In this document: in pieces, positions 58,654 through 60,620 of the stretch
Layout of the letters: every line of letters starts with the position of its first letter
How positions within the stretch are numbered: the first letter of the stretch is position 1
DNA from: Alphaproteobacteria bacterium
GTDB lineage: Bacteria; Pseudomonadota; Alphaproteobacteria; Acetobacterales; Acetobacteraceae
Assembly: GCA_017307285.1 (NCBI GenBank)
Contig: JAFKFI010000048.1
Location: forward strand, 1-64,000
Length of the DNA: 64,000 nt
Direction: 5' to 3'
Program-made: the position numbers and the translations under genes
The notes under the pieces: generated by a model
Told to the model about the DNA's origin: nothing
What the model saw: only the letters and a program-made list of their open reading frames with translations
Databases searched by the model: none

Positions 58654-60105
58654 ATGTCCGATAGCCTCCATACACTCCCGCGGGATGGGCTCATCGCGGT
58701 GGTCAAGCGCGACTGCCCAACTTGCGTGCTCACCGCGCCGGTGCTGGGCGATCTGGCGCGCCGCGCCGGCCTCGCGGTGTTCACGCAGGACGACCCGAGC
58801 TTTCCGGAGACCGTGGCGGAGCGGATCGATGACACGGCGCTCGATGTGTCGCACCGACTGCGGATCGAGATCGTGCCGACATTGATCCGGCTGCGTGAGG
58901 GGCGCGAGGTGGAGCGCACCTATGGCTGGGATCGCACGGAGTGGCAGCGCGTCGCCGGCCTCGATGCGCTCGGCGAGGAGCTGCCGCCGTTCCGTCCCGG
59001 ATGCGGCGCCAAGAACATCGAGCCCGGTATCATCGAACGGCTGAAGATTCGTCACGGCGAAACCGGCCTCTCCGCCCGTCGTGTCGGCATCGGCGACGGC
59101 GAGGACGAGATCGAGGCGATGTTCGATCGCGGCTGGTCAGACGGCCTGCCGCTTGTGCCGCCCACGGAAGAACGCGTGATGCGGATGCTCTCGGGCACCG
59201 CGCGGGACCCGCGGGAGATCGTCGGCGCTATCCCGCCCGACCTTGTGCCGGCGACAGTGGAGAAGGTCGCGATCAACGCGGTGATGGCGGGCTGCAAGCC
59301 GGAATATTTGCCGGTGGTACTCGCTGCCGTGGAGGCGGTGCTCGACGAGAAATTCGCCATGCACGGCGTGCTCGCCACGACGATGTATGTCGGCCCCGTC
59401 GTGGTGGTGAATGGCCCGGTGCGGCGGCAGATCGGCATGAACGCGCGCGGCAACGCCCTCGGTCAGGGCAATCGCGCCAACGCGACGATCGGGCGCGCGC
59501 TCCAACTGGTGATCCGCAACATCGGCGGCGGACGCCCGCAGGAGGTGGATCGAGCGACGCTCGGCAATCCCGGCAAATACACCTACTGCTTCGCAGAGGA
59601 CGAGGAAGGGTCATCCTGGGAGCCGCTCGCTTGCGACTTCGGCATCGCGCGTGGCGTCTCGGCGGTAACGGTGTTCGCCGGCTATGGCCTGCAAGGCATC
59701 GTCGATCAGAAGTCGCGCACGCCGGAGAGCCTGTCGCGCAGCTTTGCCGAGAGCCTGAAGGCGATGCAGAACGTGAAGCTTGCGCCGGGCTGCGACGTGC
59801 TGCTCGTCGTCTGTCCCGAGCACGAGCGGACGTTCCGTGAGGCAGGGTGGAGCAAGCGCCGGCTGACCGACGAGCTTCACCGACTCACGCAAATTCCCGG
59901 CGAGGAACTGGTCGGCGGCGCCAAGGGTATCGCGGAGGGCGGACCGCCCTCACTCGCGGGGAAGACGGTTGGAAAGACGAGGCCGGGCGGCCTGTTGATC
60001 GTCCGTGCTGGCGGCGGTGCCGGGATGTTCTCCGGCATCATTGGGGGCTGGGCCGCGAGCGGCGAGCGCGGCAGCATGCCTGTAACCAGGGAGGTAAAAT
60101 CGTGA
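58654..60105 (+). CDS. Thioredoxin-fold protein with a large conserved C-terminal domain, partner of the UGSC selenoprotein
   Basis: 483 residues from ATG 58654. The N-terminal domain (1-105) is a thioredoxin fold with a CxxC in DCPTCVL (Cys22, Cys25) and the cis-Pro region EIVPTLIRLREGREV. The rest (about 150-483) is a conserved domain I cannot name: GWSDGLPLVPPTEERVMRML, VEKVAINAVMAGCKPEYLPV, MNARGNALGQGNRANATIGR and FAEDEEGSSWEPLACDFG are its densest blocks. It ends in a Gly-rich turn near RAGGGAGMFSG. The stop overlaps the GTG of the selenoprotein by 4 bp, so the two are made together. A redox role is inferred from the thioredoxin domain and partner. Confidence 0.7.
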   Translation: MSDSLHTLPRDGLIAVVKRDCPTCVLTAPVLGDLARRAGLAVFTQDDPSFPETVAERIDDTALDVSHRLRIEIVPTLIRLREGREVERTYGWDRTEWQRVAGLDALGEELPPFRPGCGAKNIEPGIIERLKIRHGETGLSARRVGIGDGEDEIEAMFDRGWSDGLPLVPPTEERVMRMLSGTARDPREIVGAIPPDLVPATVEKVAINAVMAGCKPEYLPVVLAAVEAVLDEKFAMHGVLATTMYVGPVVVVNGPVRRQIGMNARGNALGQGNRANATIGRALQLVIRNIGGGRPQEVDRATLGNPGKYTYCFAEDEEGSSWEPLACDFGIARGVSAVTVFAGYGLQGIVDQKSRTPESLSRSFAESLKAMQNVKLAPGCDVLLVVCPEHERTFREAGWSKRRLTDELHRLTQIPGEELVGGAKGIAEGGPPSLAGKTVGKTRPGGLLIVRAGGGAGMFSGIIGGWAASGERGSMPVTREVKS

Positions 60106-60620
60106 CGGTGCTTCTCGATCCCACCGCGGAGCGAAGTCCGACGGTGCGGCCACGCCTGCCCCGGCCGGATCGGCTGGACGGGCTCACGGTCGGCATCCTC
60201 GACATCTCGAAACCGCGCGGCGACGTGTTCCTCGACCGGCTGCATGAGCGCTTGAGCGAGCGCGGCATCGCCGTCCGGCGTTACATGAAGCCGACCATGA
60301 CACGCCCCGCCCCGCTGCCGCTGCGCCAGCAGATCGGCACCGAGGTGAACCTCGTCATCGAAGGGTTGGCGGATTGAGGCTCCTGCACGTCGTGCTGTAC
60401 GCATGACATGTCGGATCTGGAAATCCGCGGCATCCCCTCCGTTGGCGTGGCCACCACCGAGTTCGTCGACGCGGCTGATGTGCAGGCGAAGTCGCTCGGC
60501 TTCGACCCGGCCTACGTGTTCATCCCGCACCCGGTGCAGGACCGCACGGACGAGGAGCTGCGCAAGCTGGCGGACGAGCATTTCGAGGCGATCGTGGGAC
60601 TCCTGCTGAAAGGCAACTGA
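60102..60620 (+). CDS. UGSC-family selenoprotein (in-frame TGA read as selenocysteine)
   Basis: 173 codons with an in-frame TGA at codon 92 (60375-60377). The GTG start at 60102 overlaps the upstream stop and has AGGGAGG seven bases before it. Reading through TGA, the protein is continuous in one frame: LDISKPRGDVFLDRLHERLS and IGTEVNLVIEGLAD lie before it, then Sec-GSCTSCCTHDMSDLEIRGI and the C-terminal strand-helix VATTEFVDAADVQAK ... YVFIPHPVQDRTDEEL. The U-G-S-C motif and this surround match the UGSC selenoprotein family first noticed in marine metagenomes. The two halves have no separate start with an RBS. A hairpin directly after the TGA supports selenocysteine insertion. 172 residues; function unknown, probably redox. 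Confidence 0.85.
60382..60414 (+). promoter_or_regulatory. Bacterial SECIS-like hairpin
   Basis: Pairs 60389-60395 (GUCGUGC) with 60401-60407 (GCAUGAC), one G-U included, giving a UGUAC apical loop that starts 19 nt after the UGA. Below a C-A mismatch GCA (60385-60387) pairs with UGU (60409-60411), and beyond a U-C mismatch CC pairs with GG (60413-60414). A short apical loop with G in its first two positions at this distance is the geometry needed for SelB. Confidence 0.7.

Follow-up and report, generated by a model that had tools for sequence, protein, structure and literature searches.

The 'UGSC-containing protein' was described in the GOS survey, and in aquatic metagenomes the UGSC proteins rank with the commonest selenoproteins (PMC2398784, PMC13188914). 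The survey also suggests a Trx-like fold for the protein and reports its fusion to an unnamed domain, 'Unknown_1' (PMC2398784). The family is catalogued as NF041046 (NCBIfam UGSC_fam, 'UGSC family (seleno)protein') and PF24696 (Pfam UGSC), and is functionally uncharacterised. In the glycine and D-proline reductases, a selenocysteine cleaves a C-N bond via a selenoether, which is then broken by a thiol (PMC10298544); GrdB and PrdB are the Sec components of these enzymes. A bacterial SECIS element is recognised as a hairpin that follows the TGA closely and has a G in its small apical loop (PMC1088965).

A UGSC gene with an in-frame TGA

The window (the whole stretch of DNA analysed, 64,000 nucleotides) carries a further member of this already catalogued family (PMC2398784; NF041046; PF24696). 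The gene lies at 60102-60620 on the forward strand and encodes 172 amino acids, with Sec predicted as residue 92. As read from the sequence, a Shine-Dalgarno GGAGG (60090-60094, +) is located 7 nt upstream of its GTG start, which shares the letters GTGA with the stop codon of the gene before it, and translation would end at a TGA (60618-60620, +). The only in-frame interruption is the TGA of codon 92 (60375-60377, +), found in the motif D-U-G-S-C; the codon of Cys95, presumed to be the resolving Cys, is at 60384-60386 (+). This reading bears out the preliminary description, which had reported one continuous frame with a TGA at codon 92 followed by G-S-C, hidden as two short open reading frames, with no ribosome-binding site for a start in the downstream part: standard ORF calling does split the gene in two, and inspection by eye revealed no Shine-Dalgarno sequence upstream of the first in-frame ATG of the 3' ORF (60408).

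The read-through product scored 147.4 bits against NF041046 (curated cut-off, 125) and 143.7 bits against PF24696 (cut-off, 25). The homologues came from two sources, genome contigs and 397 genomes of the order; those of the window type were 58-80% identical over the full length. At the position of codon 92, 96 of the 111 homologous loci had TGA, 15 had TGC (Cys) and none had any other codon; some of these loci represent one genome present in two collections, and the distinct hairpin regions number 70 (59 with TGA and 11 with TGC). In an alignment of 42 UGSC members, D91, U/C92, G93 and C95 were invariant and S94 was nearly so. The window protein thus shares with the catalogued family and the GOS protein the U-G-S-C motif, the Sec/Cys pairs and the SECIS-like hairpin; no defining difference from the family was seen, apart from the separate, thioredoxin-fused partner gene of the window subfamily. 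It was also noticed that one genome (G327; L038/L148) has a TGA member inside an otherwise Cys-only UGSC branch, with selB adjoining its partner gene.

The SECIS-like hairpin

A bacterial SECIS-like hairpin was located at 60378-60418 (+). Its upper stem consists of 7 pairs (60389-60395 with 60401-60407) closed by the loop UGUAC (60396-60400), and below it are two 3-bp lower stems, giving 13 pairs in three blocks. The preliminary description had placed the hairpin and its loop correctly but had counted a stem of 12 bp. The folding energy was -16 to -18 kcal/mol, with a z of about -2.1 to -2.3 relative to dinucleotide shuffles; this z of a single sequence is modest, and the significance rests on conservation. 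All 59 distinct TGA loci kept 6 or more of the 7 pairs of the upper stem, and G60397 and U60398 of the loop were invariant among them, so that each of the 59 has the kind of hairpin and loop G described for bacterial SECIS elements (PMC1088965). Upon synonymous resampling with the same codons (300 trials), the stem was kept on average in 21 of the 59 loci and never in more than 30; likewise, 98.5% of the upper-stem cells were paired in TGA loci, versus 4-52% when the partners were slid. Compensating changes were found at the closing pair (C-G to T-A and G-C) and at the base pair of the stem (G-C to A-T). In the Cys loci the upper stem was retained in 3 of 11 and the GU of the loop was gone. 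The suggestion that the hairpin fits a bacterial SECIS is therefore well supported by its conservation in all distinct TGA loci and its loss from most Cys genes. A scan of the window against Rfam gave no family at the gathering score. Two Cys (TGC) members that branch with the window-type Sec clade (L183 and L184) have kept a SECIS-like stem, with a loop, CTCGAC, that has lost the GU, as expected for a change from Sec to Cys.

Selenocysteine machinery and predicted decoding of the TGA

The genome to which the window belongs (5.68 Mb in 182 contigs, 98% complete) was found to contain all four genes that the preliminary description had proposed to look for: selA (537.7 bits), selD (305.9 bits), selB in two copies above the cut-off, and one tRNA-Sec gene (selC) with the anticodon TCA (UCA). 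The tRNA-Sec gene begins 12 nt past the stop of one selB, an arrangement close to the overlapping selB and selC genes described for Alphaproteobacteria (PMC8124441). SelD (L011, contig C126: 15653-16552) is part of a 717-aa ORF, the N-terminus of which resembles NADH dehydrogenase; the frame resembles the Ndh-SelD fusions described in PMC2398784.

Among the 397 genomes of the order, SelA was present in 35 of the 37 that carry a TGA-containing UGSC gene versus 51 of the 360 that do not (p = 4e-24, with relatedness ignored). The two exceptions are genomes that are fragmented (920 contigs) or incomplete (85% complete). SelA was absent from 6 of the 11 genomes having Cys-type UGSC only, and in several genomes UGSC genes adjoin selA or selB.

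Because codon 92 is exclusively TGA or Cys, the hairpin is conserved, the sel genes are present and SelA co-occurs with the TGA-containing genes, insertion of selenocysteine is close to certain on computational grounds. As did the preliminary description, we infer that Sec is really inserted here, now with the support of the family profile, the Sec/Cys exchange among homologues, the hairpin and the sel genes. At 60375, SelB and Sec-tRNA-Sec would insert selenocysteine at the TGA under the direction of the hairpin, the upper stem of which starts about 11 nt past this codon, and the final TGA of the gene would terminate translation.

It is very improbable that the TGA is an ordinary stop, leaving a pseudogene or a pair of short proteins translated independently: the two short ORFs called by standard methods and the in-frame ATG at 60408 would agree with this, but about 60 distinct homologues have their TGA at this very codon and conserve both halves of the protein, Cys is the sole replacement at the site, the hairpin is conserved, the ATG lacks a Shine-Dalgarno sequence and the Sec genes are present in the genome. 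Equally remote is readthrough without Sec, by Trp or other near-cognate suppression or by a reassigned TGA; the frame alone cannot identify the inserted amino acid, but homologues have Cys and never Trp or Arg at this position, the co-occurrence with SelA and the presence of tRNA-Sec point to selenocysteine, and TGA is the final codon of both the UGSC gene and the gene upstream of it. Since TGA also serves as the gene's own terminator, the codon is not simply reassigned and its recoding must depend on context.

The partner gene and a second UGSC locus

Nearly all window-type loci have a partner gene directly or a short way upstream of UGSC; in the window it spans 58654-60105 (+) and encodes 483 amino acids. 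This linkage was observed in both Pseudomonadota and Actinomycetota (Acidimicrobiia). Among the cultured bacteria that have the window-type pair are Quisquiliibacterium transsilvanicum DSM 29781 (L073) and Marinobacter daqiaonensis (L084). In the GOS survey UGSC is fused to 'Unknown_1' (PMC2398784), whereas the window UGSC has its partner as a separate gene. Residues 1 to about 110 of the partner are thioredoxin-like, with a CPTC motif (C21 and C24) in which C21-x-T-C24 is invariant; the best match of this domain to a PDB profile had an E of 0.0015, and the structural Z was about 9. It shares the fold and the CPTC motif with thioredoxin (TIGR01068), but scored below the curated cut-off of that family and differs in being fused to an unnamed domain. 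The latter, C-terminal domain of about 345-370 aa has no family name, and searches against Pfam and NCBIfam gave only chance-level or thioredoxin matches. In the alignment of 42 partner sequences C117 and C214 were invariant, and the predicted model of the partner had a pLDDT of 86. Weak Foldseek matches to class I fumarase (TM about 0.22) were judged unreliable. The lipocalin, periplasmic binding protein and TPP-enzyme genes of the window were considered as clues to a substrate and rejected, as they are not conserved beside UGSC.

The unnamed domain is also found in other arrangements: without thioredoxin it goes with the UGSC genes of Cys type, and a paralogue, UGSC-B, is accompanied by two copies of it. 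The window's genome itself contains such a second Sec-type UGSC locus (L177, contig C142, about 56.9-63.0 kb), in which UGSC-B likewise has the TGA. The order of genes there is ABC transporter genes, including one for an NMT1/THI5-like binding protein, followed by a thioredoxin reductase (TrxR)-like flavoprotein gene, UGSC-B and two partner unnamed domains. The flavoprotein gene was found beside UGSC-B in 14 of 15 loci; its counterpart among described families is thioredoxin-disulfide reductase (TIGR01292), the curated cut-off of which it does not reach.

Predicted fold, similarity to GrdB/PrdB and possible function

A model of UGSC built with the 42 sequences (mean pLDDT 91, pTM 0.86) showed a five-strand alternating beta-alpha domain with U92 placed between strand 3 and helix 3. 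Its best structural matches were flavodoxin, PurE and CheY-like chains, and a sequence search of PDB with the UGSC profile returned no match. The predicted fold thus looks flavodoxin-like rather than thioredoxin-like; a shared fold by itself shows no function.

When the profiles of reductase selenoprotein B (TIGR01917, NF040794, TIGR01918 and TIGR04483) were compared with UGSC, the GrdB profile TIGR01917 weakly matched 33 of the 42 members over the Sec region (best E, 5.7e-6), and the score of 15.1 bits is far below the curated cut-off of 602. For the window protein alone the E was 0.008, residues 81-148 being aligned to GrdB positions 336-398. In addition, profile-profile comparison (hhalign) of UGSC with three alphaproteobacterial PrdB-like proteins having a TGA matched the selenocysteine of one to that of the other (E 5.6e-6, probability 86%); the PrdB-like genes read 'U-P-V/N-C' followed by 'GIPT', the counterparts in UGSC being 'U-G-S-C' and 'GIPS'. 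In UGSC as in GrdB/PrdB, a hydrophobic strand precedes the UxxC motif that carries Sec, and a helix and then a G-I-P strand come after it. They differ in length, GrdB/PrdB having about 430 aa and UGSC about 170 aa, and in that GrdB/PrdB has a pyruvoyl subunit (GrdE/PrdA), whereas none was recognised in the UGSC partner; no GrdE/PrdA pyruvoyl profile appeared among the matches of the 42 partner proteins (E up to 1). On the basis of these alignments, we lean slightly towards common descent of UGSC with the Sec domain of GrdB/PrdB. UGSC is not filed as a GrdB/PrdB member, because it is below the cut-off and the similarity is confined to the Sec region. PrdB/GrdB-like frames with an in-frame TGA, below that family's cut-off, were noticed in two alphaproteobacterial genomes, G475 and G486 (L228, L229 and L230).

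The likeliest role of UGSC, which we put forward tentatively, is that of the Sec-containing subunit in a reductase fed by thioredoxin. UGSC and the upstream thioredoxin-fused partner would be expressed as a two-gene unit, with U92-x-x-C95 placed at a helix start right after the central strand. The selenolate of U92 would attack the substrate, Cys95 would resolve the resulting selenenyl-sulphide or selenoether, and the partner, through its CPTC thioredoxin domain, would return electrons, a task that at the paralogous UGSC-B locus would fall to the thioredoxin-reductase-like flavoprotein. UGSC would in this way be analogous to GrdB/PrdB, likewise expected to act in a thiol-driven reductase, and by analogy its chemistry could be related to that of the glycine and D-proline reductases. 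It seems doubtful that UGSC is instead a thioredoxin-like general antioxidant oxidoreductase acting alone. Such a protein would be expected from the UxxC motif at a helix start and from the Trx-like fold proposed in 2008 (PMC2398784), but the predicted five-strand alternating alpha/beta fold, with its flavodoxin, PurE and CheY matches, speaks against it, as do the GrdB-like Sec region and the location of the thioredoxin domain in the conserved partner instead. For the reductase subunit, the partner, the flavodoxin-like fold and the link to the GrdB/PrdB Sec region together make a testable proposal of function.

SelB paralogues and UGSC paralogues

Two matches to the SelB profile were present in 10 of the 48 UGSC-carrying genomes, the second one in G011 being just below the curated cut-off; tRNA-Sec was never found in more than one copy per genome among the 48. 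In the SelB tree three clades (I, IIa and IIb) were distinguished. The paralogue UGSC-A was present in 14 of the 15 genomes with clade-I SelB versus 2 of the 17 others, and UGSC-B in all 12 genomes with clade-IIb SelB versus 2 of the 20 others, as computed with phylogeny ignored; the cross pairs, clade I with UGSC-B and clade IIb with UGSC-A, showed no association. The gene positions follow the same pattern: clade-I selB adjoins UGSC-A in five loci (L056, L066, L070, L140 and L141) and is within about 7 kb of it in two more (L142 and L143), and clade-IIb selB is near UGSC-B in L144-L147, L174 and L175. A strict one-to-one pairing was rejected in view of exceptions in G228, G339, G393, G057 and the window's genome (G000).

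Two explanations suit this pattern: selB-UGSC modules may have been transferred together, or SelB and SECIS may form dedicated pairs. It seems unlikely that bacteria of this family have two Sec-decoding channels sharing one tRNA-Sec, with each SelB paralogue reserved for the SECIS of one UGSC-type selenoprotein; if true, such dedication would add a new layer of specificity to selenocysteine decoding. It is safer to assume co-transfer with decoding that is shared, because the SECIS loops of all UGSC subfamilies keep the GU and their stems are similar, and because G228, G339 and G057 break the pairing. Text searches of the literature consulted turned up no bacterium described as having two SelB, which does not prove that none has been reported. 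The SelB pattern, together with the partner and the GrdB link, might be what a specialist would not expect of this family. The partner, the second UGSC copy and the remote GrdB link do not figure in the preliminary description.

The second SelB of the window's genome (L004:988-2883, contig C43) is 34% identical to the first and has a very long branch in the tree; its gene is the selB that precedes the single tRNA-Sec gene by 12 nt. Contamination is unlikely as a general explanation for a second selB, because several other genomes have two and the GC content of both contigs matches that of the window; for contig C43 itself it is a slight possibility. In this SelB, Pfam finds the last winged-helix domain but not SelB-wing_2.
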